This document shows, piece by piece, positions 2,223 to 23,897 of a stretch of 35,445 nucleotides of DNA (its first letter is position 1; every line of letters begins with the position of its first letter). The stretch covers positions 1 through 35,445 of IMG/VR virus record IMGVR_UViG_3300044998_000941. One strand, given 5' to 3'. This DNA comes from a virus. The translations under genes and the position numbers were made by a program. A model generated the notes under the pieces. The model did not search any database. It was given only the letters and a program-made list of their open reading frames with translations, and was not told the DNA's origin.

Positions 2223-2253
2223 CAAAAATACAAGTATTTACTTGTTATCAAAG
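2223..2253 (-). promoter_or_regulatory. Consensus promoter of the HTH gene
   Basis: On the minus strand TTTG (2252-2249) and TATTTTTG (2230-2223) are separated by 18 bases, close to the Bacteroidota optimum. The spacer is filled almost exactly by the palindrome at 2230-2245, so a bound repressor would block RNA polymerase. Confidence 0.7.
2230..2245. promoter_or_regulatory. Operator O1: perfect 7-2-7 palindrome
   Basis: ACAAGTATTTACTTGT is a perfect inverted repeat with a two-base centre. It is identical to the copy next to the repressor gene at 12456-12471. It sits between the -33 and -7 elements of the HTH-gene promoter. Confidence 0.7.
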
Positions 2254-2314
2254 AAATATTTAAAATATCTTAAAAATTAAAATTTTCAATAAAATATTTC
2301 AGAAAACATTTTTA

Positions 2315-2340
2315 TTTGCAAGTAATTACTTGTATATTTG
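2315..2340 (+). promoter_or_regulatory. Promoter of the recombination operon
   Basis: TATATTTG (2333-2340) is a consensus -7 box. The nearest -33-like TTTG is at 2315-2318, only 14 bases away, shorter than usual, so this may be an intrinsically weak or activator-aided promoter. Operator O2 occupies the whole spacer. Transcription would start near 2347, which fixes the first start codon at 2366. Confidence 0.55.
2319..2332. promoter_or_regulatory. Operator O2: perfect palindrome CAAGTAATTACTTG
   Basis: A 14-base perfect palindrome, identical to the copy at 12817-12830 and differing from O1 only at the centre. It directly abuts the -7 box of the recombination operon, so occupancy should silence that operon. 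Confidence 0.7.
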
Positions 2341-2365
2341 TAAAGTAAAACCATCAAAAAAGAAA

Positions 2366-2839
2366 ATGGAAAACGTAAAAGAAAACCCAACCCAAGAACT
2401 GGTAAAAACAGATGCACCAGGGCTGAGCATAGAAGCTCAGATGTCTATTGTAGAGCAGATTGCGAAAGTGGCTGCAAATCTGGATACAGCAGAAGTAATT
2501 GATGTGGATTTAGCTTCTGACTATTGGACACCCCAAAACCCGTTGGAAAGCAAAAAACTGATTTTCATGGGCATTCAGAATCGGCTAGTGGAAGATATCA
2601 GCAACCCGGCACAAACCAGAGAGCTACCCACAGCCTTTTTTGTAGAAAAGGTAGTTCAAGGAGACAAAGAAACACTCAGAAGAGTTTGCAATGCTTCCAA
2701 GAAATTACTTGGAGTGATTAGAGACTGCAACATCCAAGCAAGTACGCCTGTATTGGTAACCTACCTTGGAAAAGTTAAGAACAAGACCAATCAATTTTCT
2801 TCTGATAGTTGGTCAGTGAAACCCATCAAAGTATCCTAG
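2366..2839 (+). CDS. Possible ssDNA-binding or accessory recombination protein
   Basis: The start is placed at the ATG of 2366 because the upstream TTG at 2330 lies inside the promoter and operator. The 157-aa product has an acidic, helical N-terminal half and a C-terminal half (residues about 65-157) with alternating strands ending in TPVLVTYLGKVKNK and WSVKPIKV, a pattern I associate with OB-fold phage proteins. It is the first gene of an operon with an ATPase and an exonuclease, the usual place for a single-strand-binding or annealing helper. The OB-fold reading is inference from pattern and context; no diagnostic motif is present. Confidence 0.5.
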   Translation: MENVKENPTQELVKTDAPGLSIEAQMSIVEQIAKVAANLDTAEVIDVDLASDYWTPQNPLESKKLIFMGIQNRLVEDISNPAQTRELPTAFFVEKVVQGDKETLRRVCNASKKLLGVIRDCNIQASTPVLVTYLGKVKNKTNQFSSDSWSVKPIKVS

Positions 2840-2882
2840 TATCCACCTGCCCTCAGTAATGGGGGCTTCTCCTCTATTCATT

Positions 2883-4076
2883 ATGAAAGTAAAACGTATA
2901 GAAATTCGCAATTTTAAGGCTATTCAAGAAGCTGATATAGATTTGAATAGTTCTCATCTGATGATCATCGGGAAAAACGGAGTGGGCAAAAGCACTATCG
3001 GAAAACTCGTTCAAGATTTACTAACCAAGAATACTCCCGTAAAACCCCTAAAAGAAGGAGAAAAGCAAGGTTATTGCCAAGTAGAGCTTTCAGATGGCTC
3101 TATTATTCATTATGCCTTTGATGAGGTAGGTCAGAAACTCAATATCATTTCTAAAACTGAGCAAGGTTCTTTGGCTCAGATACTCAAAAAATTATCTGGT
3201 AAAGGAATGAGTTTTGATATAGATGCCTTCCTACAAATGGCTCCCAAGCCCCGTAAAGAAATGTTGATGCAAGTAGCAGGGATAGACCTCACCCATCTTG
3301 AAGCAAGATACAATCAGGCATACCAGCAACGAGCTGAGGCAAATATGAAACTTAAAACTCAGCAAGCTCGCATCAAACCATATTCAGAAGAGTTGGTGGG
3401 TAAAGAAAAGGTTGATTTAGTAAAAATCACGAATCAGTACAATGAAGCGTTGGCTCATAATTTACAAATCAATACATTGACAGAAAAAGCCGGCAACCTA
3501 GATGCTGAAATATCTGAACTCAAAAAGAAATTGGCTCTTTTGGAGCAAGAACGCTTAGATGTCCAAAACTATCTTAACAATAATATCCCGATCACTAGTG
3601 CAGCCATTACTGATATGCAAAAGCAAATTGGTGAGGCAGAAGGGATTAATGCTAAGATTGATGAAGCCAATCGTTTATCTGAAGAATTTTCTCTTGCCGA
3701 AAAATATGAGAAAGAAGCCAGTCAGGCTCATAATCTCTTGCTATCCATTGAGGTGGAGAAAGAAACTATTCTCAAAAATGCAAATTTGCCCGCAGGTATT
3801 TGCTTTACTTCCGAAGGTTTGGAAATAGATGGTTTACCTTTTGAAAGCAATCAGATTGCCACTTCTCGGAAAATGATTGCTGCTTTGGAAATTGCCGAAA
3901 GAATGCTTGGAGATATTCGATACCTCCATTTTGATGCTTCCATTTTGGACAAACAGAATGCTCAGAAGATTATAGATTGGGCTAATGAACGAGATTTACA
4001 ACTTTGTCTGGAAAGAGCCCTATGGGATGGTGGAGAGTTATCCTACGAGATTATCGAACCTCAAACCACTTCCTAA
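2883..4076 (+). CDS. RecF/SMC-like AAA ATPase, recombination module
   Basis: The ATG at 2883 is preferred because the protein then opens with MKVKRIEIRNFKAI, the classic first strand of RecF/SMC/SbcC ATPases; an ATG at 2859 would add eight poorly fitting residues. The 397-aa product has Walker A GKNGVGKST at 30-38, a long central coiled coil (about residues 140-290), and a C-terminal lobe ending near GDIRYLHFDASILD, which fits the place of Walker B but lacks the usual Asp-Glu pair. Homologues stand beside PD-(D/E)XK exonucleases in many phages and are thought to work with them in DNA end processing. The next gene starts one base after its stop, suggesting coupled expression. Confidence 0.8.
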   Translation: MKVKRIEIRNFKAIQEADIDLNSSHLMIIGKNGVGKSTIGKLVQDLLTKNTPVKPLKEGEKQGYCQVELSDGSIIHYAFDEVGQKLNIISKTEQGSLAQILKKLSGKGMSFDIDAFLQMAPKPRKEMLMQVAGIDLTHLEARYNQAYQQRAEANMKLKTQQARIKPYSEELVGKEKVDLVKITNQYNEALAHNLQINTLTEKAGNLDAEISELKKKLALLEQERLDVQNYLNNNIPITSAAITDMQKQIGEAEGINAKIDEANRLSEEFSLAEKYEKEASQAHNLLLSIEVEKETILKNANLPAGICFTSEGLEIDGLPFESNQIATSRKMIAALEIAERMLGDIRYLHFDASILDKQNAQKIIDWANERDLQLCLERALWDGGELSYEIIEPQTTS

Positions 4077-4077
4077 A

Positions 4078-4722
4078 ATGGATTATTTTGATGTAAAAGC
4101 TGTCAGTAATTCTAAGATAGGAGAATGGAAGAAGATGCTTCGTGGAGAAAAGAACCTCCACGAAAACTCTTCTTTTAAAGGAGCTGGTTTGCTCTTCGGA
4201 ACGGTATTTCACGCCATTATCGCAGGAGAGGATATTCAAGAAAAGTTTGACAAACTAAAACCCCACGAACGTTTTGAAGTGATGAAAATGGCTAAGAAAA
4301 TACACAAAGAACTTGGGCATATCATTACAAAAGCAGTTTCTAAAGAGCAAGAATATACGTGGGTACAAGAGTTTGAAGGAGTAGGGAAAGTAAAATGTAA
4401 AGCGAAAACAGACCTTGTTTATCAAGATGAAATGGGTTTACATTGCGTGGACTTCAAAACTACTGCTGCAGATTCTTATGAAGAGTTTTTGGGTAGCGTA
4501 ATGACTTTTGATTATCATCGGCAAGCTGCCTGGTACTTCCTAGCAGATAAATTTCAAACTTACACGATTATAGGAGTAAGCAAAAGCAAAAGCCACGATA
4601 TTTTCATTTTACCACCTTTCACCAAAGAAGACTTACTCATTGAAGTAGGCTTACAAGAATGCATAGAAGTAATGCAGGAAGTAAGAAAAATGAATCAATA
4701 TCAGGAGTATTTTCAATTTTAA
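4078..4722 (+). CDS. PD-(D/E)XK exonuclease (RecB/RecE-like, DUF3799 type)
   Basis: The ATG at 4078 follows the ATPase stop by one base, and the protein from there (214 aa) contains the entire nuclease core. Visible motifs are GTVFH (His45), KAKTDLV (Asp112), VDFKTT (Asp125 and Lys127) and DYHRQAAWY (Gln149, Tyr153). This order is that of RecB-family phage exonucleases such as RecE and lambda-exonuclease-like proteins. Role: resection of double-strand DNA ends for phage recombination, probably together with the ATPase upstream. An in-frame extension to 3985 would run back through the ATPase coding sequence and is unlikely. No annealase of recognisable type (RecT, Erf, Beta) is seen next to it. 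Confidence 0.85.
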   Translation: MDYFDVKAVSNSKIGEWKKMLRGEKNLHENSSFKGAGLLFGTVFHAIIAGEDIQEKFDKLKPHERFEVMKMAKKIHKELGHIITKAVSKEQEYTWVQEFEGVGKVKCKAKTDLVYQDEMGLHCVDFKTTAADSYEEFLGSVMTFDYHRQAAWYFLADKFQTYTIIGVSKSKSHDIFILPPFTKEDLLIEVGLQECIEVMQEVRKMNQYQEYFQF

Positions 4723-4731
4723 ACAACGAAA

Positions 4732-10140: not shown

Positions 10141-10276
10141 CTTTTTTCATTTATAATACTTTACTTTTCCTATCAGTTTCATAATTTATACCTTAAAATA
10201 CTGATATTAAACTAGATACAAACTTTATCGCTTTCTTAATATAAAATAATGTCATAAAATTTTATTACTCAATATT

Positions 10277-10873
10277 TTATTCTGACTTTATCATTGATAA
10301 TTGATTGATTTCATAAAGCATGTTAGTCAGTCTCTCATCCTTGCGAAATCTCTCAACTTTATCTATTATTTGCTTTACGAACTTTTCTGTTTGGTTTCCA
10401 GCATACCATGATAAGGTATTTTCGTCAAAATGACCATCATAAGGGCTATCAAAAATATAATTTCCTGATTCTACAATTTTAAATTGTGGCTCAAACTGTC
10501 TATCTACTCTATCAAAGGCTGAGATTATGGGAGAATATTTCCCCTTCAACAGTTCATCTATTTTATAAGTATCAAATTTATTTTGATTTCCTAAGAATAA
10601 AACGAACTGAAACTTCCAACCTATAGCCAGAGCAAGTGATTCCTTGCCAAAATCTTGTAAATACCATTTCATATCAAAATTGGGATCACCCCACGGTTCA
10701 CAAATCCACCCCTCTACTGCATTTTCATTGAAGTATTTTTGTAGTGGTTGTTTAACTTTTTGAAAATACTGATATTTTATGGCAGGTATTTGATTTGTCA
10801 ATTCAAGAAATGAATTCCATTTTTCAGGGCTTTCGAATAAACCAATTACCTTGTTCAGAAGTTCTTTTTGCAT
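10277..10873 (-). pseudogene. C-terminal half of a split PDDEXK_4-type protein
   Basis: This 198-aa open frame lies in the same reading frame as the 266-aa nuclease gene upstream, separated from it only by a TAA (10888-10886) and four sense codons (Phe-Leu-Lys-Ala) before its ATG. Its start, MQKELLNKVIGLFESPEKW, resembles the segment that normally follows the helical QYI region in full-length PDDEXK_4 proteins, and it shows no catalytic motif itself. The rest is Trp-, Phe- and Asp-rich (EPWGDPNFDMKWYL). Either the stop is a recent nonsense mutation, or the halves are made separately and assemble. I cannot exclude that it is an independent gene. Confidence 0.55.
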
Positions 10874-10885
10874 TGCTTTTAAAAA

Positions 10886-11689: not shown

Positions 11690-11730
11690 TACTTGTAATT
11701 TTCAAAATTATGTCACAACACCTTCATCAA
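11690..11730 (-). promoter_or_regulatory. Promoter and half-operator of the PDDEXK_4 gene
   Basis: On the minus strand TTG (11730-11728), 17 bases and TAATTTTG (11710-11703) form a consensus promoter overlapping the end of the repressor gene. ACAAGTA (11696-11690) matches one arm of the phage operator and lies three bases upstream of the ATG, but the other arm is not conserved. The gene could therefore be expressed in the lysogen with little repression. Confidence 0.5.
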
Positions 11731-12449
11731 TACACCTTGCTTTGTACAATTTCTTCTATTTTTAAAATTTGGTGAATATCCTGAACATCCACCTTCATTT
11801 GTCCGTGCTTCGGATTGTCAGCAATTAGAAGTAAATATCCTTTGCTCTTAATATCGTTGTCCACTACACGCTTAATTTCGTATCTGCCACCAAAAAAAAC
11901 TGCATACACAGCATTATTGATATACTGCCAATTAACTTTTTCAATCTTTCTGGCAAGTAATAAAGCATCATCCACAAAAGTAGGCTCCATACTATCTCCT
12001 AGTGCTCGTATCAGGGTAGTACCGTCATAAAACTCCTCATCATGCAAACACATAATTTTACGTGTCTTTTCGGAGATGTACTCCAAGCCATTCCCCGAAT
12101 CCTCTTTAAACGAAGCAGCAGCATAGAAATCTATATAGGGTAGCTCAATGAGTTTAATATCTGATTTGACAAGGTTTTTCTCTTGTGCCTCATAAATAGG
12201 GTATTCACCCTCTAAAAGCCATTTATAGCGAACTCCAAAGGTTTGGCTAATCTTCTCCAACAGCTTTGAACCAGGGTTAGTCTTTTTCCTTTCATTAGTA
12301 CCTTGCACCAACTTACCCACAACAATATCGTAGATAGTACCATTGTTTTTATATCCAAGAGCTTTTGCCAAAGAATTAGGATTCAAATTTTCTAATTTCA
12401 TCAATTCTTCTACCCTGTCGCTTATTTGCTTTTTGTTTTCCTTTTTCAT
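11727..12449 (-). CDS. LexA/CI-type phage repressor (HTH + S24 peptidase)
   Basis: The 240-aa product has an N-terminal XRE-type HTH (about residues 8-75, with SLAKALGYKNNGTIYDI) and a C-terminal S24 domain with GDSMEPT (catalytic Ser153) and RYEIKRV (Lys193). This is the layout of lambda CI-like repressors that lose activity by RecA-stimulated self-cleavage. The likely hinge DFYAAASF lacks the usual Ala-Gly scissile pair, so the cleavage site is uncertain. The gene diverges from the early operon, and a perfect palindrome (12456-12471) abuts its start codon. It is the obvious candidate to bind the repeated ACAAGTA palindromes across the window. Confidence 0.9.
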   Translation of the reverse strand: MKKENKKQISDRVEELMKLENLNPNSLAKALGYKNNGTIYDIVVGKLVQGTNERKKTNPGSKLLEKISQTFGVRYKWLLEGEYPIYEAQEKNLVKSDIKLIELPYIDFYAAASFKEDSGNGLEYISEKTRKIMCLHDEEFYDGTTLIRALGDSMEPTFVDDALLLARKIEKVNWQYINNAVYAVFFGGRYEIKRVVDNDIKSKGYLLLIADNPKHGQMKVDVQDIHQILKIEEIVQSKVY

Positions 12450-12455
12450 AAAAAT

Positions 12456-12471
12456 ACAAGTATTTACTTGT
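12456..12471. promoter_or_regulatory. Operator O3 at the repressor/early switch
   Basis: A perfect ACAAGTA-TT-TACTTGT palindrome six bases upstream of the repressor ATG. It also covers the -33 TTG (12468-12470) of the rightward early promoter, so one bound dimer could control both directions. Confidence 0.75.
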
Positions 12472-12498
12472 TTATTGAAACTATTTATATTATGTTTG
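12468..12498 (+). promoter_or_regulatory. Early rightward promoter
   Basis: TTG at 12468-12470, 20 bases and TATGTTTG at 12491-12498 match the Bacteroidota consensus and spacing. Transcription would start near 12505 and read the early replication operon. The -33 element is inside operator O3. Confidence 0.7.
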
Positions 12499-12530
12499 CA
12501 TAGTGATTTACGATAAATCTACTAAATTCT

Positions 12531-12556: not shown

Positions 12557-12569
12557 TTTTAATTGCATT

Positions 12570-12797
12570 ATGAGTGAAAAAGATAAGATTAATGAAGAGT
12601 ATCATAGAATACTTGCTGAAATATCCGGACGTGTACCCAAAGGATACATTCGTATTATCCGTGAAAAGCTCAAAGATGAAAGCCGTTTTTTTTCTGATTT
12701 TGTGATTCAGAATGTTAAAATTGGCAAAACTCCCAATTTGCGTATCGCCAGACTTTTATTGGAAGTTGCGGACGAATACGGACCTATAAAAGAGTAA
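12570..12797 (+). CDS. Small early protein in the Cro position
   Basis: The 75-aa product is the first gene opposite the repressor, where Cro-like proteins are encoded. It is charged and mainly helical, with GYIRIIREKLKDES and PNLRIARLLLEVADEYG segments that could form a short DNA-binding helical bundle, but the standard HTH pattern is weak. The early promoter and two operators lie upstream. A Cro or early antirepressor role is inferred from position only. Confidence 0.6.
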   Translation: MSEKDKINEEYHRILAEISGRVPKGYIRIIREKLKDESRFFSDFVIQNVKIGKTPNLRIARLLLEVADEYGPIKE

Positions 12798-12816: not shown

Positions 12817-12830
12817 CAAGTAATTACTTG
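12817..12830. promoter_or_regulatory. Operator O5: palindrome before the second early gene
   Basis: A perfect CAAGTAATTACTTG palindrome ending four bases before the ATG at 12835, identical to O2. No good -7 box is visible just upstream, so it may act as a roadblock to transcription from the early promoter or hide a non-consensus promoter. Confidence 0.65.
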
Positions 12831-12834: not shown

Positions 12835-13152
12835 ATGATAGAAATTAGTCAGGAATACATCAAAAATATTATTTGGGAGTGTATCAAAAAACAAGACGAC
12901 TTTGAATTACAGGTAACCAAAGTCTTAAAAGAAAAGCTTCCTGATCTATTCAAAGACCTTGGCTTCAAAGAAGACTACATCAGTGGTTCTCAGGTTTGTG
13001 AATTGTTAAAATGTTCGCCCTCAACGCTTGCGATATATCGTAAACAAGGTTTGCCATACATAAAAAGCAGCCCTAACAAATATTTGGCATCTGAGGTAAA
13101 AAAATGGTATGCCGATAATAAAAAAATATATCGAAAAGTACGCAACCGATGA
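12835..13152 (+). CDS. Excisionase/MerR-like HTH protein
   Basis: The 105-aa product has a helical N-terminus (residues 1-48) and a C-terminal winged-helix-type segment: GSQVCELLKCSPSTLAIYRKQ followed by LPYIKSSPNKYLASEVKKWY. The order (HTH, short wing with KY, closing Trp-Tyr helix) is that of Bacteroidota HTH_17 proteins, which include excisionases and small regulators. It could act as an early regulator or origin-binding protein. Its stop overlaps the start of the next gene by four bases. Confidence 0.7.
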   Translation: MIEISQEYIKNIIWECIKKQDDFELQVTKVLKEKLPDLFKDLGFKEDYISGSQVCELLKCSPSTLAIYRKQGLPYIKSSPNKYLASEVKKWYADNKKIYRKVRNR

Positions 13153-13868
13153 AAAGGAGAAAAATAGCTTACTGCACAGACTACGCCATACTTTTTGATA
13201 GTGTGGAAGTAGCCGTTTTTCTTAGTCAGTTTGAATATTGGCTGACTAAACTGGGGAACAAAGATGCTTATTTGTACAAAGGACAAGAGCAAATATATCT
13301 AGAAACAGGGCTAAAAGAAAGTAAGCAAAAAGTGGTGAGAAAACTCTTGCAAGCCAATCAGGTGCTTTTTGAAAAGCGAAAGATTGTTTTCGAGAGGAAA
13401 GAACCCAAGAACCTCCTACACTACCGAATAGATTTTGATAGAATTGAATACCTTTTTGAGCATCCTAAAGAAGTGAAAACTCGTTACGAAAGCCAAATCA
13501 GTAACACTCAAAAAAAAAACAACCTCAAAAAGCAAACTTCCAATTTGCAAGTTTACAAAGAGCCTGAAAAAGAAAGCGATTTTGAAGTCTTCTGGAAAAA
13601 GTACGATAAGAATGTGGGAAAATCCGCCACCGAAAAGCTTTGGAATAAAATGCCACAAGAAGCCAAAGAAAGGGCTCTCACACACGCTGAACAACTCGCA
13701 AAAAATACAGAAAAACGGTATAGACCGAATCCTGAGCGATACCTCGCAGAACAGAAGTTTTTAGATGAAATCATCATAAATCAAAATACTAAACCAACAC
13801 TAACCTCCAACAATGATGAATACAGAAGCAACCCACTCGTTGGAATTATTCAAAAAGATAGGAAGTGA
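13149..13868 (+). CDS. Phage replication initiator-like protein
   Basis: The 239-aa product starts with a winged-helix-like domain (residues about 8-100: VAVFLSQFEYWL, EQIYLETGL, QKVVRKLLQ, ERKEP), then a Lys/Asn/Gln linker and a C-terminal motif FEVFWKKYDKNVGK...LWNKM...ALTHA followed by PNPERYLAEQKF. That C-terminal motif is common in phage O-type and DnaD-like replication proteins. It probably binds the phage origin and hands over to the DnaC-like loader encoded next. Its last 56 bases overlap the start of that gene in another frame, an unusually long overlap. Confidence 0.7.
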   Translation: MKRRKIAYCTDYAILFDSVEVAVFLSQFEYWLTKLGNKDAYLYKGQEQIYLETGLKESKQKVVRKLLQANQVLFEKRKIVFERKEPKNLLHYRIDFDRIEYLFEHPKEVKTRYESQISNTQKKNNLKKQTSNLQVYKEPEKESDFEVFWKKYDKNVGKSATEKLWNKMPQEAKERALTHAEQLAKNTEKRYRPNPERYLAEQKFLDEIIINQNTKPTLTSNNDEYRSNPLVGIIQKDRK

Positions 13869-14781
13869 GTTTGTAGATAACTATCGGATTGATGAAGAAA
13901 ACACTCATGAGATTACAGCTCTCCACGGGTATCTTATACAAGATAAGCAATTCGAGTCTCTAAACCATGTATTTTCTCTGGATAAAGGCATTTTACTTAT
14001 GGGAGGCGTTGGAACAGGCAAAACGCTCTTGATGCGAATTTGCCAACGATTTCTGGCAAAATTTAGTCAGAAAGATACTTTTTCATATAAACATATCAAT
14101 CAATTAGCCAATGAATACATAGAATATGGCTTTTCGGTATTGGAACGTTTCGATAAGAAAGATTTGTGGATAGATGAAGTAGGTCTTTTTGATAAGGAGA
14201 GTATCAAACGCTACGGAAACAATTCTAATATTTTTGAAGAACTCATCATGCACCGTTACGAAAAATTCATTTACAATGGTGTAAAAACACATATCACTAC
14301 AAACTTAACGCCTCAGCAGATAGAAGCAGAGTATAATCCTCGTATTTGGAGCAGACTCAAAGAAATGTGCAACATGATACCTCTTACTGGCAAGGATAGA
14401 AGAGATTATGCCAAACCTAAACCGGTCTTAAAATCGGAACAACTTACTCAAAAAACTGAGCAAGAGCAAGAACAAGATATAGCACAAGGCATTTTGGAGC
14501 ATTGGAGAGAATGCCAGAAGGCAGAACGATACCTCCCTTGTGGAGTTTTTAATATGCTTGCTTGGGTATATTACGATTTTCTTGATAGACATCAGATTAT
14601 TCAATATACACCTCAGCAAAAGTACGAAGCCCTGAAATCAGCTCAGCATAAAATAGGGGAAGCCCACAATCAGTGGGGAAAGTCTCTTAAAAATGAAGAA
14701 ATCAATATAGCGAAAGCTATTCTATTTGAAGATTTCATACTCAATCAAAACGTTCAACAAAAACTTTCTAAATTCTTATGA
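13813..14781 (+). CDS. DnaC-like helicase loader ATPase
   Basis: The 322-aa AAA+ protein has Walker A GGVGTGKT at 64-71 and Walker B LWIDEVG at 118-124, then a sensor-I-like THITTNL and an arginine-containing PRIWSRLKEM region, as in DnaC/DnaI/IstB-type loaders. A further 120 residues with Trp-, Tyr- and Gln-rich helices follow the ATPase core. Role: to load the replicative helicase onto the phage origin. The ATG at 13813 (with a second at 13816) lies inside the previous gene. The next gene starts within its stop codon (ATGA). Confidence 0.8.
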   Translation: MMNTEATHSLELFKKIGSEFVDNYRIDEENTHEITALHGYLIQDKQFESLNHVFSLDKGILLMGGVGTGKTLLMRICQRFLAKFSQKDTFSYKHINQLANEYIEYGFSVLERFDKKDLWIDEVGLFDKESIKRYGNNSNIFEELIMHRYEKFIYNGVKTHITTNLTPQQIEAEYNPRIWSRLKEMCNMIPLTGKDRRDYAKPKPVLKSEQLTQKTEQEQEQDIAQGILEHWRECQKAERYLPCGVFNMLAWVYYDFLDRHQIIQYTPQQKYEALKSAQHKIGEAHNQWGKSLKNEEINIAKAILFEDFILNQNVQQKLSKFL

Positions 14782-15412: not shown

Positions 15413-16318
15413 ATGAATTTATTTGCTGCCAAAATAGCCGAAATGCAAGAAACAGGTTTACCTGTTTTTTTGCTTAAAGACCTCCCGAAGAAGCATATTT
15501 CTTCGGGCTTCTTTACGCTTGACTACTTTTTACTTGGAGGTTTTGAAAGAAGAAAAATTACAGAAATTGTAGGCTGGGACAGCACAGGACGTACTTCTTT
15601 GTGTTTGCATACAGCCGAACAAGTACAAAAAGAAGGAGGCATTGTAGCCATTGTAGATACAGAAGACTGTTTAGAAATGGCTCAGAAGAGATTACATCCT
15701 GATAGAACTGTTTTTTGCCCTTTTCACGTAGTCAAGGATTTATTAGCTACAGGTTGTGTAGATTTACTTATCATAGACTCCATTGCTGCCATTTCTTATG
15801 AGACAGGTTATGGCTCAAAATATGCTTCTAAAAACATTTCAATGGTCGTTGGAGAGCTACGCAACATTTCGGAACTCATCAAAAAATCGAATACAGCCTG
15901 TTTGATTACCAACCAATTCAGACAAAGCCCAAGGGGGATTTACACATATGCCGAAGCCCAGCTATCTGCTTATTTTGATGTTCGCTTATTTCTGACCAAA
16001 ATAGCCAACCGAAGTAAATTTATACAAGAAGGCTTTCGATTGAATTTGGTAATAAAAAAACATAAAAACTATCCAGAGTTTGAAAATAAGGAAGTAGAAT
16101 TGGATATTTTCCCACAACAAATGCAATTTGCAGAAGTTTCTAAAGTAATAGAGATCGCTTTGCAAAAAGGAATTATTCGCTACAATGGTAGAGTATTTAT
16201 TTTTAAAAATAATCCTATCGGCAAGAAAAGCCAGATAGGAGACTTTATGAAAACCAACTGGAATATATTTGAAGAAATCAAAAAAGAGGTGTTTGAACTT
16301 AGCATCAGACTCATTTAG
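15413..16318 (+). CDS. RecA-like recombinase with Arg in Walker A
   Basis: The 301-aa product follows the RecA core: VEI-like strand ITEIVG, P-loop GWDSTGRTS at 54-62, VDTEDCL (Glu84, matching RecA Glu96), Walker B VDLLIIDSIAAI (Asp122) and loop-2 ITNQFR at 165-170. The invariant P-loop Lys is Arg60. In E. coli RecA the matching K72R change allows ATP binding and filament formation but nearly abolishes hydrolysis. The C-terminus differs from RecA and is shorter. It may be a phage strand-exchange protein tuned to stable filaments, or a derived non-hydrolysing paralogue. Its end overlaps the convergent DUF6046 gene by four bases. Confidence 0.8.
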   Translation: MNLFAAKIAEMQETGLPVFLLKDLPKKHISSGFFTLDYFLLGGFERRKITEIVGWDSTGRTSLCLHTAEQVQKEGGIVAIVDTEDCLEMAQKRLHPDRTVFCPFHVVKDLLATGCVDLLIIDSIAAISYETGYGSKYASKNISMVVGELRNISELIKKSNTACLITNQFRQSPRGIYTYAEAQLSAYFDVRLFLTKIANRSKFIQEGFRLNLVIKKHKNYPEFENKEVELDIFPQQMQFAEVSKVIEIALQKGIIRYNGRVFIFKNNPIGKKSQIGDFMKTNWNIFEEIKKEVFELSIRLI

Positions 16319-16944
16319 CCCAAAGTTTGTCCTGTTGTATTATTAGCAGTTGTTTGGCTCTGCTGAAAATCATCTCTAACCACTAGTTCTACAATTTTAT
16401 CACTCAATGCTTGTATTTCATAGGGCTGTATATGAGGAGCACCCTCAAAAACAGGAAATCGAATACTTCTGATAGCAATATAGAAAACATCAAAGAGGTT
16501 CAAATACTCTGAAATAACCTCAACAGACTCTCTGGTTTCACTGATTTTTCTAAGATTCTGAATTTCTGCAATTGGATAACTGTTTTCATTTTCGCCTATA
16601 ATCACTCCCCTGATAGTTATGTCCCAATCATTCATCCCCATACTTTCTTTTACAGTACCTTCATAATTTGTCATTTCGGTAATCACAAGATTTTTAGAGA
16701 GTCCAAGTTCTATCAGAGGCTCGTTAGGCAGTTCTATATCATTGAGCCTGACAATATTCATGACTTGCCCTACATAAGGGCTTGCTTTTTTGCCTGCAAC
16801 CGTTTCAAGTAAATTTTGGACACGCTCACCATCCAGAGGATTTCTGAGGTATCCGTTTTGCTGAGCAAGCAAAGGAAATGGCAAGCCTTTCAAGCCAAAA
16901 ACAGCCTGATAGACATCGTTTAAGTTAAATTTTAATTCAGCCAT
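16315..16944 (-). CDS. DUF6046-type tail protein
   Basis: The 209-aa product is a mostly beta phage protein (motifs GKKASPYVGQVMNIVRLND, TNYEGTVKESMGMNDWDITIRG) that I associate with the DUF6046 family found after tape measures in Bacteroidota phages. The segment VKESMG...WDITIRGVI resembles the tail-hub/initiator region of contractile tails. The gene overlaps the tape measure by one base. It is the last late gene in the window; no baseplate or fibre gene follows, because the opposing replication region begins at its stop. Confidence 0.7.
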   Translation of the reverse strand: MAELKFNLNDVYQAVFGLKGLPFPLLAQQNGYLRNPLDGERVQNLLETVAGKKASPYVGQVMNIVRLNDIELPNEPLIELGLSKNLVITEMTNYEGTVKESMGMNDWDITIRGVIIGENENSYPIAEIQNLRKISETRESVEVISEYLNLFDVFYIAIRSIRFPVFEGAPHIQPYEIQALSDKIVELVVRDDFQQSQTTANNTTGQTLG

Positions 16945-19184
16945 TAGAAACTTGTTTGTAATTGCATTGCACCATTGATCGCTCTTGTAACAGTGGTAAT
17001 AATTTTAGATTCAAGCAAATCCAAACCACTTCCAGAAGTATCAGCCCCGCTAATTTCCATTCTTTCCGCAGCTTGTAGTTTAGAGATATTGACAGTTACG
17101 TGAAGTTGCTTATTGCCACCTGCAGAGATACTATCAATGCCACTTTGAGCCTCTTTGACAGCCGAAGATTTCCCAGAAGTTGCTAAAGAAGATACAGAAG
17201 CAGTTCCCATAGCTGTTGCATTCGTTGCAGGAGTTTTACTAAACAAATTTTTAGCAAAATCAGCTGCTTGACCAAGCATGCTATCTTTTCCAGTGGCTTG
17301 TTCGTACAAAAATTTCGCTCCATCTGTCATAGATTGGGCTTTTTTTGTGATAAACGACAAGTCAGCTGCTTCTGTACTCTGGGCAGCACTAGCTGCTCCT
17401 TGGGCTACTGATGAAATTTTAGTTTCCGTTTTATCTCCTAATCCTAGAATGTCCATTACCAGATTATAAATAGCCTTCAAGTCATCTATAAAACCCATTA
17501 CCTTTTCCCAAACCCATTTGAGAGCATTCCCTATCCCTTCAAATGCCATTTTACCGACTGTCCCGATTGCATCCAGTACTACCCGAACGGTCTCAGAGTT
17601 ATCGTATGCCATTTTGAGCAAGCCTATCAATCCTGCAATTGCTCCAATAATCAACCCGATAGGATTGGCTGAAAGAGCTACATTCCAAGCCCATTGTAAA
17701 GCAATCACTGTTCCGTAAATGCCTGCAAGAATGCTTAACCAATTGCTATTTTCTGTAATCCAACGAGCCATCATAGCAAGCCCCTCTACAAAAGGAGAAA
17801 TAATGTTGGCTAAAAAACTAATTGAAGGAGCTACTACATTTGTAACAATGCCAGCCAGCGTTTGCATTACTCCTTTTGTAGTATCACCCACACTACCCAC
17901 ATTTCCGAAGCCAGCAACAATAGCATCTATAATAGGCAGAAATGCTGCTTTTAGACTAGCTGCGACTGTTTCCACAAATGCAAAATTTTCTGTAACAGCA
18001 TTGATAAAGGATGTAATCCCTTGCACAATATCCCTTAAAAATCCGTTTGAGCTATCTCCCATTCGAATAAACAAACCCTCAATACCACTTTTTAAGATGG
18101 TAACATCTCCTTTGAGGTTGTCCAACATTCTTTTGGACATATTTTCAGATGCTCCGGCAGCATTGTTATACTCATTTGTAAGTCCTCTCAAAGCTTCAGC
18201 TCCTTGCATTACGACTTCTTTCCCATCTACCATAATTTTCTTCTGTGCAGACATTAAAGTAAGTATCTCTCCTGTTGCTTCAGCTCCGAATAGAGTAGAA
18301 ATGGAAGCCATTTTTTGCTCTTGTGTGTATTGCTGAGTGGCTTTAGAAAGGTTCTCGACCATGGCAGCCATGCCAATAAACTTGCCACTGGTATCGAAAG
18401 CAGAAAAACCAAGTCTATTCATTTCTGCTTGCATAGCAGCTGTAGGAGCAGCAAACCTTCCCATAGCTGTTCCCAAAGCTCGTGTAGCCATACTACCTTT
18501 CATTCCATAATCTCCCAAAATACCAATTGCAGCGGATACCTCCTCCAAAGATATTCCCAAAGAGGCAGCCGTGGGTCCTATGTACTTCATGGATTCAGCC
18601 ATACTTTCAACAGTAGTATTCGTTCTACTTACGGCCTTGGCAAGTACGTCAGTTACACGAGCCGAATTTTCAGCTTTGATAGAAAAAGTTGCCATCGTGT
18701 TGGCTACGATTTCAGAACTTCTTCCTAACTCCATGTTAGTGGCTGCTGCAAAACTAAGAACATTACCAATAGTGTTCACAGAGTCCGAAGCTGTAAATCC
18801 TGCTCTTGAAAGTTCTGTAAGTCCTTGTGCAGCCTGAGTAGCAGAAAAGGATGTACTATTACCTAATTCAATAGCCTTTTTTCGCATTTTGTCAAAGTCC
18901 TCTCCAACTGCCCCAGAAACAGCTCCGACTTCACTCATTTGAGCATCAAAACTCAAAGAATATCCCATTACAGATTCAAAAGCATTTTTTATCAAACCTA
19001 CTGATTGTACAATCTGATTAAATTGAAACGCTCTTCCAAATAAGGAAACTTGGTTATCAGCTGCTTTGGCTGCATTTCCTGCATTCTGAAAAGAACTGGA
19101 AACCCCTCCTAGTGATGCCATAATTTTCGCAACAGGAGAGGAAACCATATCTGTAATTTTGAGAACAACTTCGTAGGCTTTCAT
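16944..19184 (-). CDS. Phage tail tape measure protein (TP901 type)
   Basis: The 746-aa product has the TP901 tape-measure core: FDAQMSEVGAVSGA, GNSTSFSATQAAQGL, TNTTVESMAESMKYIGPTA, GILGDYGMKGSMATRALG and an ASISTLFG motif, residues about 70-310. A hydrophobic stretch (about residues 470-535, ALSANPIGLIIGAIAGLIGL) suits the membrane-active segment of this family, and the C-terminus is Ala/Ser/Thr-rich. Role: sets tail length and leaves with the DNA at infection. The ATG overlaps the TGA of the -1 frame of the tail chaperone gene, as in lambda-type G/GT-H arrangements. Confidence 0.9.
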   Translation of the reverse strand: MKAYEVVLKITDMVSSPVAKIMASLGGVSSSFQNAGNAAKAADNQVSLFGRAFQFNQIVQSVGLIKNAFESVMGYSLSFDAQMSEVGAVSGAVGEDFDKMRKKAIELGNSTSFSATQAAQGLTELSRAGFTASDSVNTIGNVLSFAAATNMELGRSSEIVANTMATFSIKAENSARVTDVLAKAVSRTNTTVESMAESMKYIGPTAASLGISLEEVSAAIGILGDYGMKGSMATRALGTAMGRFAAPTAAMQAEMNRLGFSAFDTSGKFIGMAAMVENLSKATQQYTQEQKMASISTLFGAEATGEILTLMSAQKKIMVDGKEVVMQGAEALRGLTNEYNNAAGASENMSKRMLDNLKGDVTILKSGIEGLFIRMGDSSNGFLRDIVQGITSFINAVTENFAFVETVAASLKAAFLPIIDAIVAGFGNVGSVGDTTKGVMQTLAGIVTNVVAPSISFLANIISPFVEGLAMMARWITENSNWLSILAGIYGTVIALQWAWNVALSANPIGLIIGAIAGLIGLLKMAYDNSETVRVVLDAIGTVGKMAFEGIGNALKWVWEKVMGFIDDLKAIYNLVMDILGLGDKTETKISSVAQGAASAAQSTEAADLSFITKKAQSMTDGAKFLYEQATGKDSMLGQAADFAKNLFSKTPATNATAMGTASVSSLATSGKSSAVKEAQSGIDSISAGGNKQLHVTVNISKLQAAERMEISGADTSGSGLDLLESKIITTVTRAINGAMQLQTSF

Positions 19185-19707
19185 TGGCTAAATACTAGGA
19201 AAGGGTTAGAAAGAGCTTCTTTTTTACGTACCCATTGTAGTTTGGCAAACTCAGCAAAAAACGCATCATCGCTTAAGGCTTCTACTTCTGCTGGGGTATA
19301 TCTAAAATAATACCTCAGCTGTATTTCCATTTGGCTGAGGTAGTCTTCTTCAATAAGATTTTTGTAATAGTCTAATTTTTTTTTACAACTTCTGCATCAT
19401 AACCATTGACAACTGCCTCTATTTTGCTTTGTAAAGCCAAATAAACCTTTCCATTGCTGAGAAACTCTTTACCATTCACAAGGGTGCTGTCCAAAATGAC
19501 ATCAATGAAATCGCTTCCATTTTTAGTCTGAGAAACTTTCGCATTGGCAGCCTTGATAATCTGCCTGCTAATGTCCTTGAAACAAAATAGCATTTTTTCA
19601 CCATTACTCTGCTTAGTCAGTTCTACAATAGTCAAAGTACCATAGTTATTTTCTAATTCAGCTATTTCTTGCTCCGAAAAACTTACTTTCTTATCCAGAT
19701 TTTCCAT
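19181..19707 (-). CDS. Predicted tail-chaperone frameshift product (G-T type)
   Basis: Nine A residues (minus strand, 19384-19376) lie just before the TAG of the 111-aa gene. A shift of -1 there opens a frame of 64 codons that runs without a stop to a TGA at 19183-19181, overlapping the tape-measure ATG. The predicted fusion is about 175 aa, ending LSNPFLVFSQ; the added part begins KLDYYKNLIEEDYL and is acidic and helical. A perfect 9-bp inverted repeat (19311-19319 with 19334-19342) follows 34 bases downstream, too far for a standard stimulator. Gene order, length and position match the programmed-frameshift chaperone of tailed phages; frameshifting itself is inferred. Confidence 0.7.
19372..19707 (-). 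CDS. Tail assembly chaperone, short form (G type)
   Basis: The 111-aa product is acidic and mixed alpha/beta (VSFSEQEIAELENNYG, TIVELTKQSNGEKMLFCFKD) and ends KKN at a TAG immediately after an A run. It stands between the tail tube gene (one base upstream) and the tape measure, exactly where tail assembly chaperones are encoded. In that family the short form is abundant and coats the tape measure during assembly, while a rarer frameshifted form recruits tube subunits. No sequence motif proves this; the argument is position plus the open -1 frame. Confidence 0.7.
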   Translation of the reverse strand: MENLDKKVSFSEQEIAELENNYGTLTIVELTKQSNGEKMLFCFKDISRQIIKAANAKVSQTKNGSDFIDVILDSTLVNGKEFLSNGKVYLALQSKIEAVVNGYDAEVVKKN

Positions 19708-19708
19708 A

Positions 19709-20119
19709 CTAAGAGTTATAATCTATTTTACCAATATTTAGGGGTAGAGAGACTTCCATGTGAGTATCTCCGGACTTCATACCTTTTTCAAACTCTGTAA
19801 AAGAGCACCCTCTCAGAATATCTACTACAACAGCATTTTCATAAGTATAAGCTACTGTAATATCAAATGCAGGAATATCCGTAAGGGATTTTCCTCGAGG
19901 CAAAGATTGTTGCAAAGCTTCAATTTCACTTTGTAGCAAGGTAATGGAGCCATCATACTCATTTCTTCCTCTTCCATAAGCAACAGGGTTTCTACCCCTG
20001 CCATAAATCTTCACCTGTTCTTTCTTTGTTTTATAAGAAATGGCTGTAATTCCAATCAGAGGTCTTCCCAAAAGGACGACCTCAATATCTTCCCAAGCGT
20101 ATTCTGTACCGTTAATCAT
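19709..20119 (-). CDS. Probable tail tube protein
   Basis: The 136-aa product is predicted to be largely beta (WEDIEVVLLGRPLIGITAISYK, EYDGSITLLQSEIEAL, GDTHMEVSLPLNIGKI), with a GRGRNPVAYGRGRN loop. The fold outline and the position after the sheath gene fit the tail tube of contractile-tailed phages. Stop and start spacing to its neighbours is one to two bases. The family is recognised by context more than by motif. Confidence 0.65.
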   Translation of the reverse strand: MINGTEYAWEDIEVVLLGRPLIGITAISYKTKKEQVKIYGRGRNPVAYGRGRNEYDGSITLLQSEIEALQQSLPRGKSLTDIPAFDITVAYTYENAVVVDILRGCSFTEFEKGMKSGDTHMEVSLPLNIGKIDYNS

Positions 20120-20121
20120 AG

Positions 20122-21321
20122 CTAATTAATATTTGGATTGGAAAAGCCTAATGTAATATCAAACTGCCTGCCGATACCTGCGGGCACAGCTTTGATGTTG
20201 ATGGCTACTTTGTCAGTTGCCAGTACATCCTGATTGGGGTCTGCAAAAGCTTGTATGCCACTAATTTCACCAAAAGCCACCATGTTTTGTTCAATGGCTC
20301 TTTCTACCTTTCTCTGAAAAGCTTTGATAACAGCAGGAGTAAGTTTGCCTGTTTCTGCATCTACCACAAAATCTTTATTGAGTTCAAATACATAGACTTG
20401 ATAAGCGATGCGAGCCATCTTATCAGCTACTCTCCCTCTGTTGATAAATGCGTAATCATCTGTGATGTTAGTCGCTACACTATCATCACACCAGAAAAAG
20501 CCCGATACACCAGTATAAGTTCTTGGGAAAATATAACCTTTGTTGTACAATACTTGCAACTCTGCTTGGCTGTAATCTTGTACCTTTTTACTAGAACCTA
20601 TCCAAGCATTTTGCAAACCAATATCACCATCTTCTACACAGCCTAGGTTTCTTTGTACTCGAATTCTCGCTAATCTTCCCAAAGCAAGCCCTACTAAACA
20701 AGCATCAGCATTTGCAGCATCCCATCCTAACAGCACCGAAACTCGATTTTGAGTACCTGTTCTGAAATCCTTAGCAGAGCCTACATTACCTTGAAAATCT
20801 CTACCTTCTACAATAATTTGTATAGGTCTATGATTGGCTTGTTCTTGTACAACAAGCAATTGAGCTTTGGTAACAGCAGCCACTACATCCGGATCTATAC
20901 CTTCTATGATAGTAGGGTTGTAACTAGCTGGCATTCTTGTAACGCCCAATAAATTAACCCTCCCTTGTAGTTGATTGAGCAACTTGGTAGCATACAAATT
21001 ACCCGTAGGATCTAGGATTGTTTCCATTGTTACAGCTTCAGATACTACCATCAAATACAATTCAGCACCCTCTCCTGCAGCAGTATAAAAATCTTTACAT
21101 TGCTTGTGTGCATTGGTTTGATTAGTAATATCGTAAGCAGCTGTAATCCCCTTTTCTTCAACATTCGGCAAAGAGAAGAAAGGACCGATTACATCTCCCA
21201 ATGCAAACTGACCAGAGATAGCTATGCCTGTAACAATCATAGCTACAATACCGTCAGCAGAACTAGCTGTACGCCCTAACTGACCGTTCTCATATTGAAT
21301 ATTTACGTTGGGTAATGTCAT
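20122..21321 (-). CDS. Tail sheath protein, DUF2586 type
   Basis: The 399-aa product begins LPNVNIQYENGQLGR, followed by SSADGIVAMIVTG, a start typical of DUF2586 sheath-like proteins of Bacteroidota phages. Further conserved-looking parts are GAELYLMVVSEA, VSVLLGWDAANADACLVGLALGRLA, SGFFWCDDSVA and a C-terminal IKAVPAGIGRQFDITLGF strand. The presence of a sheath indicates a contractile tail. The gene is two bases from the 88-aa gene upstream, and next comes the tube gene, the usual sheath-tube order. Confidence 0.8.
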   Translation of the reverse strand: MTLPNVNIQYENGQLGRTASSADGIVAMIVTGIAISGQFALGDVIGPFFSLPNVEEKGITAAYDITNQTNAHKQCKDFYTAAGEGAELYLMVVSEAVTMETILDPTGNLYATKLLNQLQGRVNLLGVTRMPASYNPTIIEGIDPDVVAAVTKAQLLVVQEQANHRPIQIIVEGRDFQGNVGSAKDFRTGTQNRVSVLLGWDAANADACLVGLALGRLARIRVQRNLGCVEDGDIGLQNAWIGSSKKVQDYSQAELQVLYNKGYIFPRTYTGVSGFFWCDDSVATNITDDYAFINRGRVADKMARIAYQVYVFELNKDFVVDAETGKLTPAVIKAFQRKVERAIEQNMVAFGEISGIQAFADPNQDVLATDKVAINIKAVPAGIGRQFDITLGFSNPNIN

Positions 21322-21323
21322 TT

Positions 21324-21590
21324 TTACACCTCCTTATCAGAGAAAGTTTCAATAGCCATATCTCTACCCACTTTGTAGAGTTTGAGTTTATTGAGGCTCG
21401 CATGCCTTTTAGCATACAAGATATTACTCATATAAAAAGCTTGACCATCACTGGTAACCAGCAGCTCTTTGAGTTCCTCGTTTTCGGCAAAAATAGGCTT
21501 TACGGAAGATGCCAAAGTAGATTCAGCATCTTTTTTGGTAGTTTCGTTTTTGGTAACACCTTTTGCATCATTTTTATTTTCTGTACTCAT
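21324..21590 (-). CDS. Small late protein between capsid and sheath
   Basis: The 88-aa product has a Lys/Asp/Glu/Thr-rich, probably disordered start (residues 1-25) and a folded remainder with ELLVTSDGQAFYMSNILYAKRHASLNKLK. It lies 47 bases after the capsid gene. It could be a head completion or neck protein; no family is recognised. Confidence 0.6.
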   Translation of the reverse strand: MSTENKNDAKGVTKNETTKKDAESTLASSVKPIFAENEELKELLVTSDGQAFYMSNILYAKRHASLNKLKLYKVGRDMAIETFSDKEV

Positions 21591-21637
21591 AAAATCCTAA
21601 ATGTGATAAAATGTGAATAAATAAATGTAAATGGCTT

Positions 21638-22528
21638 TTACACTGGAACTGAAACAATTGCTCCAAGTCCTTGAGCCTTTTTAGGCATCGCAATAAACCA
21701 AAGCCCAAAACCCACCACTGTTTTACGTTTTTCAGGATCAGTACTTTTCTCCCTATAAAACATATCAGGGTCAGCACTTGCCTTGAAAGTTCTGGGTGCA
21801 TAAAATGCGACAGATGCATAATTATCTGTTGCAGGATTAAAAACACTTCCAAAAGCCTTCTTAGCCAGAGCAGCCGTATAACCAGGTACAGAGTGATACT
21901 CATAGATGTCGAATCCAAACAACGAAGGAACAATTGTTCCAGAGCCAATATTTTTATATTGTTCTTTGAAAGTTTCCGACACATTGAGTAGTTGTTCTAC
22001 GTGCTGAGGACATAAAACAAGTATTCTGTCTTTCTTGGGTACCTTGATATCGTCAAAAGCTCTTTTGAGTTTGATAATATCAGCTACTGTAATCTGTTTT
22101 CGAGCAGATGCTCCTCCATCAGTATTACCTGTTGTTTGTACAATAGGAGTATCTGCGGAGTTTGTGCTAGGAGCTAAAGCATGAATAGCTAAATCAGCTG
22201 CTGTTTCTTGCATCTTGTCTGAGTGCAATTGGGCATATTCAGCAATAACATCATAATGCAAACCATGCAGATATTTATCCGGTACGCCTGTATTTTCCGT
22301 TTCAAGATGCTTCAATGGAATGGGCACATCAGTATCATTCACATCTACCACAGGAATAGGATAAGTAGTATTATCCACAAGCACATTGGGGTCTCCTCCG
22401 ATTTCTGTAAAGTGAATAATTTTATTTTTTACCCAATCATTCTTTTCTGGAATGCGATCCATAAAGCCTGTGTCTTTACGGAAACGTGTAATAAGTTCGC
22501 CTGTCCAAAATTCTGAATGTACTGCCAT
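21638..22528 (-). CDS. Major capsid protein
   Basis: The 296-aa product follows the protease-scaffold gene, as in Mu-like and HK97-fold heads. It has an N-terminal EFWTGELITRFR segment, an IPLKHLETENTGVP turn, a helical spine with HYDVIAEYAQLHSDKMQETAADLAIHALAP (key residues His, Glu and Asp at regular spacing), a VLVLCPQH-like strand and a C-terminal VGFGLWFIAMPKKAQGLGAIVSV. These features agree with Bacteroidota phage capsid proteins of this size. The gene is 67 bases downstream of the protease gene and probably shares its transcript. Confidence 0.85.
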   Translation of the reverse strand: MAVHSEFWTGELITRFRKDTGFMDRIPEKNDWVKNKIIHFTEIGGDPNVLVDNTTYPIPVVDVNDTDVPIPLKHLETENTGVPDKYLHGLHYDVIAEYAQLHSDKMQETAADLAIHALAPSTNSADTPIVQTTGNTDGGASARKQITVADIIKLKRAFDDIKVPKKDRILVLCPQHVEQLLNVSETFKEQYKNIGSGTIVPSLFGFDIYEYHSVPGYTAALAKKAFGSVFNPATDNYASVAFYAPRTFKASADPDMFYREKSTDPEKRKTVVGFGLWFIAMPKKAQGLGAIVSVPV

Positions 22529-22595
22529 AAGTATTTGGTAATTTGAGATTTAAGCCTGATTTTTAAGATTAAAAGTTGGGGGTTGTAAAAGACTC

Positions 22596-23750
22596 CTAGC
22601 TTTGTGGAACAAAGCCATACTGAGCTTTGTAGAGTTTCACATAAAGACCAGGTTCTTCATTCTTGATTCTTTCAAGTTCAGTCGGATCATTTTTCATGTA
22701 GTCCAATAATCCCCAACCTGCTTTTTCATCGACAGTAGTAGTTCTCTCAGAAAATCTGGGATGCGTAGATGCCGAAAGATTATTGATAGTGTCTTTTGCA
22801 AGATCAAAATCTGTCAAAGCCAGTTTCATAAAAGAATCTTTCTGATTCGCTCTGATTTTACCTTTTGCAAGGGCATCTTCTATCAAAGCTACTGCATTGG
22901 CTTTTTTGGCTTCTTCATTCATAGCCTTCAATTCCTCATTTTCAGCTTTTAAAGAATTAATTTCCTCCAGAAGCATATCATTTTGCATCCCTTTGGCTTT
23001 CAAATTCTTTATTTCTGCAATAGTTTCTTTTTCAGAAGAGTCTAATGACAATCCTAATGCATTTTTCAGGTTGTCAAATACTTTGCTATCGTTCATTGTA
23101 TGTGTAGGTTTAGTAATAGGTGCAGGTTCAGAAAGAATAGAGTTGTAGAACTCGTATAATGCCGTAGGTGTATTATTCCCCTCTGGCGATACTTGCCCTC
23201 TTTTGTTTGGATAAGAAATTACTTCATCAATAAATCCTTTTGAAAGAGCCTCTTCCGCAGAAAGCCAAGTTTCGACATTCATCATTTCATCAATCGCTTC
23301 TTTGTTCTGTGACGTTCTTGTTTCAAAGATTTTTACCAGACCATCTTTGAGAGAGCTAAGCACGCTCTGTTCCTGAGCAGAAGGATTAGGATTCCCATTA
23401 TGAGGATTATGCAACATCAATTTTGCATAATCTGCCATAAATACTTTTTTACCAGCCATCAATATTACTCCTCCCATACTTGCGGCAATTCCATCATTGT
23501 AAGTATGAACAGGTACTTTGCAATTGAGAATGCTGCTGAAAATAGCATACCCTTGTAAGATACTTCCCCCAGGGCAATTGACTCTAATATTGATTTTTTT
23601 GTAAAAAGAAGCCAGATAATCTAATTCTTGGGCAAACACATCTCCTTGAATACCTCCATCCCCTCCAATAGGCTTATATATACGCATTGTAGCTGTATCA
23701 CCAGAAGCATTTTGAAAGTATTGGAGTGTATCAAGTTGAGGTTTTTCCAT
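22596..23750 (-). CDS. ClpP-type prohead protease fused to a scaffold
   Basis: The 384-aa product has a ClpP-like N-terminal half: VNCPGGSILQGY (59-68), nucleophile GIAASMGG (Ser91), LMLHNP (His114) and KGFIDEV (Asp175). From about residue 210 a charged coiled coil (EIKNLKAKGMQNDMLLEEIN and on to EEAKKANA) resembles an internal scaffold. Such fusions let the protease be built into the prohead and digest the scaffold. An operator copy (23752-23765) abuts the ATG and a -7 box lies at 23778-23785, so the capsid genes seem to have their own repressible start, separate from the packaging genes. Confidence 0.85.
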   Translation of the reverse strand: MEKPQLDTLQYFQNASGDTATMRIYKPIGGDGGIQGDVFAQELDYLASFYKKINIRVNCPGGSILQGYAIFSSILNCKVPVHTYNDGIAASMGGVILMAGKKVFMADYAKLMLHNPHNGNPNPSAQEQSVLSSLKDGLVKIFETRTSQNKEAIDEMMNVETWLSAEEALSKGFIDEVISYPNKRGQVSPEGNNTPTALYEFYNSILSEPAPITKPTHTMNDSKVFDNLKNALGLSLDSSEKETIAEIKNLKAKGMQNDMLLEEINSLKAENEELKAMNEEAKKANAVALIEDALAKGKIRANQKDSFMKLALTDFDLAKDTINNLSASTHPRFSERTTTVDEKAGWGLLDYMKNDPTELERIKNEEPGLYVKLYKAQYGFVPQS

Positions 23751-23751
23751 A

Positions 23752-23765
23752 CAAGTAATTACTAT
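23752..23765. promoter_or_regulatory. Operator O6 at the protease/capsid start
   Basis: CAAGTAATTACTAT matches the palindrome in 12 of 14 positions, with a degenerate right arm. It ends one base upstream (minus sense) of the ATG at 23750, between a predicted transcription start and the coding sequence. Confidence 0.6.
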
Positions 23766-23777
23766 AATTATTCAAAA

Positions 23778-23813
23778 CAAAAGTAAAAAATAAAAAACTT
23801 GATTTAAAATCAA
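23778..23813 (-). promoter_or_regulatory. Internal late promoter for protease and capsid genes
   Basis: On the minus strand TACTTTTG (23785-23778) matches the -7 consensus. The nearest TTG (23813-23811) lies 25 bases upstream, slightly long. Transcription would start near 23771 and pass through operator O6. Confidence 0.45.
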
Positions 23814-23845
23814 AAAAGAATGATTGCACCTTTTAAGGGTAATCA

Positions 23846-23876
23846 TTGCATCTTTTATAAAAAATCTTTATTTTTG
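23846..23876 (+). promoter_or_regulatory. Consensus promoter of the 61-aa gene
   Basis: TTG at 23846-23848, 20 bases and TATTTTTG at 23869-23876 are an excellent match. The predicted start near 23883 is at the first base of operator O7, so a bound repressor would block initiation. Confidence 0.65.
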
Positions 23877-23883
23877 ACTTTGA

Positions 23884-23897
23884 AAAGTAATTACTTG
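23884..23897. promoter_or_regulatory. Operator O7 at the 61-aa gene
   Basis: AAAGTAATTACTTG matches the palindrome in 13 of 14 positions. It ends one base before the ATG at 23899 and covers the predicted transcription start. Confidence 0.6.

Follow-up and report, generated by a model that had tools for sequence, protein, structure and literature searches.

Operators of a single lysogeny repressor are dispersed over the genome of phage P1, whose repressor C1 acts with the corepressor Lxc (PMC8198154), and repressor sites are also dispersed along the genomes of mycobacteriophages L5 and Bxb1, where they are known as stoperators (PMC6550527, PMC9283540). Bacteroidetes possess a non-canonical LexA, composed of a CI-like helix-turn-helix (HTH) and an S24 domain, with palindromic operators in promoters, its own included (PMC8565304). 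No paper on the operators of Bacteroidota temperate phages was found in the literature searched. Here, IMG/VR record IMGVR_UViG_3300044998_000941 was analyzed over its 35,445 nucleotides (the window), which encode an integrase, replication genes, a Mu-like portal/F protein, a ClpP-type protease, capsid, sheath and tape measure. A palindrome, CAAGTANNTACTTG, is present at eight intergenic sites of the window, and these sites probably constitute the operator network of a temperate Bacteroidota phage under the S24/CI-like repressor encoded at 11727-12449.

The locus shows both shared and distinct features when compared with these systems. As in the lambda-type CI/Cro immunity region, an S24 repressor gene and a gene in the cro position diverge from a stretch with several operators that overlap promoter elements; unlike lambda, the window also has operators far from this switch, among them those at the recombination operon and at the head-gene junction. 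The late genes of lambda are controlled indirectly, via Q. With L5 and Bxb1 it shares the dispersal of sites, and the site at 12817, between two genes of one operon, appears similarly placed. However, the sites of L5-type phages lack symmetry, mostly follow the direction of transcription, number up to 30 and are mostly off promoters, whereas the window has eight palindromic sites, mostly on promoters. As its sites are symmetric and promoter-linked, the window set is not a stoperator system. P1 is alike in its one lysogeny repressor with dispersed operators and differs in its corepressor and asymmetric operators; C1 and the window repressor are unrelated. C1 controls a late-activator gene, which would parallel a 61-amino-acid (aa) gene at the head junction of the window. 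The Bacteroidetes LexA resembles the window repressor in its S24 domain and in palindromic promoter operators that include its own, and has a CI-like HTH, which is putative in the window repressor, while the window repressor is phage-encoded, has another motif and no SOS genes, and the scissile Ala-Gly was not seen in it. Dispersed operators of one immunity repressor are already known, and by analogy the window may work like those of P1 and the L5-type phages. A reading of the window made from the sequence alone (the sequence-only reading) had called direct repressor control in the middle of the head cluster unusual, which is overstated in view of the dispersed sites of L5-type phages (PMC6550527) and P1 (PMC8198154).

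Palindromic sites and promoter elements

The core palindrome was found without mismatch at 2231, 2319, 12457 and 12817, with one mismatch at 23884 and with two at 23752 and at 12532 and 12542, a pair that overlaps as half-sites in tandem, CAAGTATTTACAAGTATTTACTAA. The sequence-only reading had the four perfect copies (two of them as 2230 and 12456, counted from the flanking A), the imperfect ones at 12541, 23752 and 23884 and the half-sites at 1534 and 11690, all of which exist. It had missed the overlap partner at 12532 and a copy with one mismatch in coding sequence at 2698, which has a background score (11.6 bits, 0.7 expected). The sites are as follows, with no strand assigned.

2231..2244, operator-like palindrome CAAGTATTTACTTG; fills the spacer of the minus-strand promoter TTTG-N18-TATTTTTG of gene 1801-2202
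2319..2332, operator-like palindrome CAAGTAATTACTTG; adjoins the -7 element TATATTTG (2333-2340) of the recombination operon
12457..12470, operator-like palindrome CAAGTATTTACTTG; 8 base pairs (bp) from the repressor start codon
12532..12555, a pair of imperfect sites that overlap (cores 12532 and 12542; 14.7 and 16.2 bits); on the downstream side of the promoter at 12491
12817..12830, operator-like palindrome CAAGTAATTACTTG; within the early operon, 4 bases ahead of the HTH gene start
23752..23765, imperfect site CAAGTAATTACTAT; 1 base from the protease start codon, 15.2 bits
23884..23897, near-perfect site AAAGTAATTACTTG; a single base ahead of the 61-aa gene, 19.4 bits

A symmetric 20-bp matrix was trained on the four perfect sites only, as the sequence-only reading had proposed. 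Over about 35,000 positions, the ranks after the training sites were occupied by 23884 (19.4 bits), 12542 (16.2), 23752 (15.2) and 12532 (14.7). All four of these untrained sites are intergenic, and the ranks below them are coding matches at background score. A score of at least 14.7 bits was reached by 0.15 positions per shuffled window. Intergenic DNA makes up only about 2.4 of the 35.4 kb (7% of the window); under a Markov model of this DNA, 0.003, 0.02 and 0.26 intergenic sites are expected at zero, one and two mismatches, against 4, 1 and 3 observed (eight sites against 0.28 in total). A blind search of the whole window with several half-lengths and gaps returned CAAGTANNTACTTG as the sole repeated palindrome besides A/T runs. 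As an observation, the palindrome set is confirmed to be real. The sites fall in two spacer classes, TATTTA (2231, 12457, 12532, 12542) and TAATTA (2319, 12817, 23752, 23884), which might differ in affinity or in binder.

The Bacteroidota vegetative promoter pattern TTG-N18..22-TANNTTTG is complete at 2230 on the minus strand and at 12491 and 23869 on the plus strand, while the -7 element alone is found at 2333 (plus) and 23785 (minus). Intergenic TANNTTTG elements on the same strand as a start codon and not more than 130 bp upstream of it were counted (n=7); five of them have a palindrome site within 25 bp and the remaining two have half-sites. Sites occur in 4 of the 18 gaps of at least 30 bp, and three of these four gaps are divergent, lying between the repressor and the early operon, the 133-aa HTH gene and the recombination operon, and the protease and the 61-aa gene. 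The final three bases of site 12457 form the -33 TTG of the rightward promoter TTG-N20-TATGTTTG (12491-12498). Site 23752 is downstream of a -7-like TACTTTTG on the minus strand (23785-23778), and site 23884 is just downstream of TTG-N20-TATTTTTG (-7 element 23869-23876), the promoter of the 61-aa gene. Three of the eight sites are within five bases of a start codon. The placement in a promoter spacer, on a -33 element and at start codons is as the sequence-only reading had described it.

The S24 repressor and its predicted network

11727..12449, minus strand, CI/LexA-like repressor with a putative N-terminal HTH and a C-terminal S24 peptidase (PF00717, phrog_4)

The product of this gene, recognized as a LexA/CI-type repressor already by the sequence-only reading, matches PF00717 (S24 peptidase, E=3e-7, above cut-off) and, over residues 1-235, phrog_4 'transcriptional repressor' (E=5e-20); the HTH_3 match is weak (17.2 bits, below the curated 23). 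Ser153 and Lys193, which form the Ser-Lys catalytic dyad, are invariant in its alignment A2. The scissile Ala-Gly for RecA-triggered self-cleavage was not found at the usual position in the protein, where the expected stretch reads FYAAASF. Despite this, the assignment stands on the other features, and cleavage at another bond is conceivable. Since three of the eight sites (12457, 12532, 12542) are situated in the repressor's own divergent gap, 12450-12569, the usual location of phage repressor operators, we infer, as is standard for phage repressors, that it is the binder of the palindrome. Phage matches to the repressor are distant and mostly over the S24 part, no close relatives were found in IMG/VR, and two chromosomal S24 regulators match it among 396 Bacteroidota genomes. 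These two (L060 and L061) are about 30% identical to it, and their upstream region resembles the start of a divergent UmuC-type gene, as would be expected for Bacteroidota SOS regulators. Beside the repressor, at 5559-11686, the window has an Eco57I-type restriction-modification pair (type IIG enzyme and methyltransferase) and a PD-(D/E)XK protein (PDC-S26); this region has no full operators and is likely defence cargo expressed in the lysogen.

In the proposed mechanism, a dimer of the repressor would bind ATACAAGTAwTTACTTGTAT and, in the lysogen, would block RNA polymerase at four control regions. At its own divergent switch (12450-12569), the Cro-position gene and the replication genes would be kept off. 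At the divergent region 2203-2365, the recombination operon and an HTH gene would be off. The third region would be site 12817, just ahead of the HTH gene of the early operon. At the divergent region 23751-23898, the putative 61-aa regulator would be off and, with lower confidence, the protease operon. Upon induction, all blocked promoters would be freed. The genes and operons concerned are as follows.

1801..2202, minus strand, 133-aa HTH protein, divergent from the recombination operon
2366..4722, plus strand, recombination operon: phrog_14584 protein, SbcC-like ATPase and exonuclease VIII-like protein
12570..12797, plus strand, 75-aa first gene of the rightward operon, cro position; no family match, role taken from position
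12835..13152, plus strand, HTH protein (phrog_668)
13149..14781, plus strand, replication genes: O-like initiator and DnaC-like helicase loader
16315..23750, minus strand, protease-capsid-tail operon: protease 22596-23750, major capsid 21638-22528, sheath 20122-21321, tape measure 16944-19184
23899..24084, plus strand, three-helix protein of 61 aa, encoded divergently to the protease; matches the same-slot small HTH proteins of relatives weakly
24076..30928, minus strand, terminase-portal part of the head cluster

The matrix scan found no operator-scale site in the gap 30929-31207, upstream of the terminase-portal genes. The same gap has ATACAAGT-N7-ACTTTTAT, an inverted repeat of similar half-sites at another spacing, which may be due to chance. 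Between the primase-like and AAA-ATPase genes (32108-32337), iterated direct and inverted GGAGTTT/CAAACTCC repeats resemble an iteron origin.

The sequence-only reading had considered that the palindrome might be scattered randomly through the host genome; in 396 Bacteroidota genomes it is not scattered and occurs at chance level, with 7 matches compared with 8 for the reversed control. No cluster was found in 57 viral contigs with a perfect copy, nor the operator-plus-promoter pattern in other viral contigs, and in 26 prophage regions whose capsid protein is about 40% identical the palindrome is not a repeated element. Because of its chance level in the genomes and the lack of clusters in other viral contigs, it is regarded as a phage-private signal. 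By its capsid, the phage is related to Bacteroidota prophages (about 40% identity) and to Winoviridae, among them Peternella_1, lotta8-1 and FPSV-S1. No close relative of the whole phage was found; viral contigs yielded no relative of the DnaC loader, and the 396 genomes none of the integrase. In Dysgonomonas prophages (G003 region, L072/L073, and G422, L102/L103), TTTAAA-N5-TTTAAA(-N5-TTTAAA) repeats of 11-bp period are scattered among late genes, several of them ending at a start codon; a dispersed binding or late-promoter element is possible.

The head junction and the competing explanations

The region 23751-23898 separates the terminase-portal genes from the protease-capsid-tail operon, and the 61-aa gene runs in the opposite direction. 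The same layout was observed in lotta8-1 (gp33, 60 aa), in FPSV-S1 (an unannotated 64-aa frame, 53% identical to gp33) and in L179 and L155 (57 aa, HTH-like). About 20 IMG/VR loci (L125-L154) have an 82-92-aa protein divergent from the protease, which is ribbon-helix-helix-like by eye. The small genes are at L121:18375-18557, L122:18335-18529, L155:6811-6984 and L179:2263-2436 and at the L125-L154 junctions. In many phages of the Winoviridae-like group, the small gene that diverges from the head protease probably encodes a DNA-binding protein. Against a profile of four HTH-like slot proteins, the 61-aa protein scored 10.3 bits; 3 of 20,000 shuffles attained this value, as did a handful of the roughly 12,100 small frames unrelated to it, four of which are listed above it. 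Its AlphaFold model has three helices (predicted local distance difference test, pLDDT, 80); fold searches with this model gave no significant match, and neither did hhalign against two relatives (E=0.24). It is likely, though not certain, that the protein is a small regulator of the sort encoded by the slot genes of the relatives. At the L125-L144 protease junctions, CAAATATAGTAATTAATTTTG holds two back-to-back -7 elements (TATATTTG on the minus and TAATTTTG on the plus strand), with the plus-strand TAATTTTG four or five bases from the start codon; this arrangement suggests overlapping divergent promoters and a nearly leaderless mRNA.

At the head junction of the window, the protease-side site (23752) is the weaker and that of the 61-aa gene (23884) the stronger. 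As the stronger site belongs to the 61-aa gene and the slot gene of the relatives is probably DNA-binding, a regulator of the late region may be as much a target of the repressor as the capsid operon is. Direct control of a capsid promoter by the repressor, as claimed by the sequence-only reading, is partly supported; it gains from the score of 23752 above shuffled background and loses from the weakness of this site and from a similar leader in relatives that lack the operator. Direct repression of the protease operon is, on these sequences, about evenly balanced.

Several points weigh against the repressor network as proposed. Site 23752 consists of one perfect and one poor half, and the TACTTTTG of the protease has no -33 TTG at 18-22 bp. 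In most of L125-L144 and in L154, the closest protease relatives, the protease leader is of the form TATAGTAATTA(A/T)TTTTGTAT-ATG, without an operator of this kind; because the window leader, TATAGTAATTACTTGTATG, resembles it, part of the 23752 match may be inherited leader instead of operator. Two different binders could lie behind the spacer classes TATTTA and TAATTA, and the sites could also be targets of the Cro-position protein or of another HTH protein. No relative sharing the repressor HTH was found in IMG/VR, phages or the 396 genomes, and the predicted structure of the repressor alone was too poor for use (pLDDT 34).

The main rival to direct control of the protease operon is that the 61-aa gene alone is directly controlled: 23884 would be the sole working operator, the protease operon would have its own start and 23752 would be mostly inherited leader. 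This indirect control of the late region is a serious contender, somewhat short of an even chance. It fits the closeness of the relatives' leader to TATAGTAATTACTTGTATG, the small, probably DNA-binding gene in the same slot, the 19.4 bits of 23884 versus 15.2 bits of 23752 and the full TTG-N20-TATTTTTG promoter at 23884. It does not account for the gene-side half of 23752, CATACAAGTAATTACT, which is identical to that of 12817, or for the score of 23752, attained by 0.15 positions per shuffled window.

It is rather unlikely that the palindrome is chiefly the target of some other phage protein (the 75-aa Cro-position, 133-aa or 105-aa HTH, or 61-aa protein) with the S24 repressor acting elsewhere. 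Several DNA-binding candidates are encoded beside the sites and the two spacer classes would suit such a binder, but it is the repressor's own control region that has the most sites, and the window has no further palindrome left for the repressor. Very improbable is that the sites belong to a host SOS regulator. Bacteroidota SOS regulators are CI-like S24 proteins with diverging motifs (PMC8565304), and the nearest chromosomal homologues of the repressor are S24 regulators with a seemingly UmuC-like upstream region; however, the motifs CTAA-N5-TTAG, GGA-N5-TCC and TTAC-N5-GTAA differ from the palindrome and none is in a control region here, and the palindrome is at chance level in the 396 genomes. 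Host SOS control was rejected on motif, as CTAA-N5-TTAG is absent from the window and GGA-N5-TCC is found in coding sequence only. Chance, or start-codon context in AT-rich intergenic DNA, has a negligible probability and is refuted for the site set, though conceivable for 23752 alone. Three sites are within five bases of a start codon; four perfect 12-position palindromes stand against 0.003 expected, and the remaining sites are away from start codons.

For the network under the S24 repressor, the head junction allows a further reading, which we put forward tentatively and with more doubt than belief. The lysogeny repressor would directly silence the protease-capsid-tail operon and the divergent small regulator via paired operators, as a version of a conserved head-junction control slot of Winoviridae-like Bacteroidota phages, a slot whose local divergent regulator would switch the late genes and would here be placed under the immunity repressor.

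The window supplies a sharp, testable motif with eight sites and a named repressor, and the network, if true, predicts the genes which are shut off in the lysogen. The head-junction slot is the more interesting by-product of the operator analysis: a conserved divergent control slot ahead of the capsid protease in this phage group is a candidate answer to late-gene timing.

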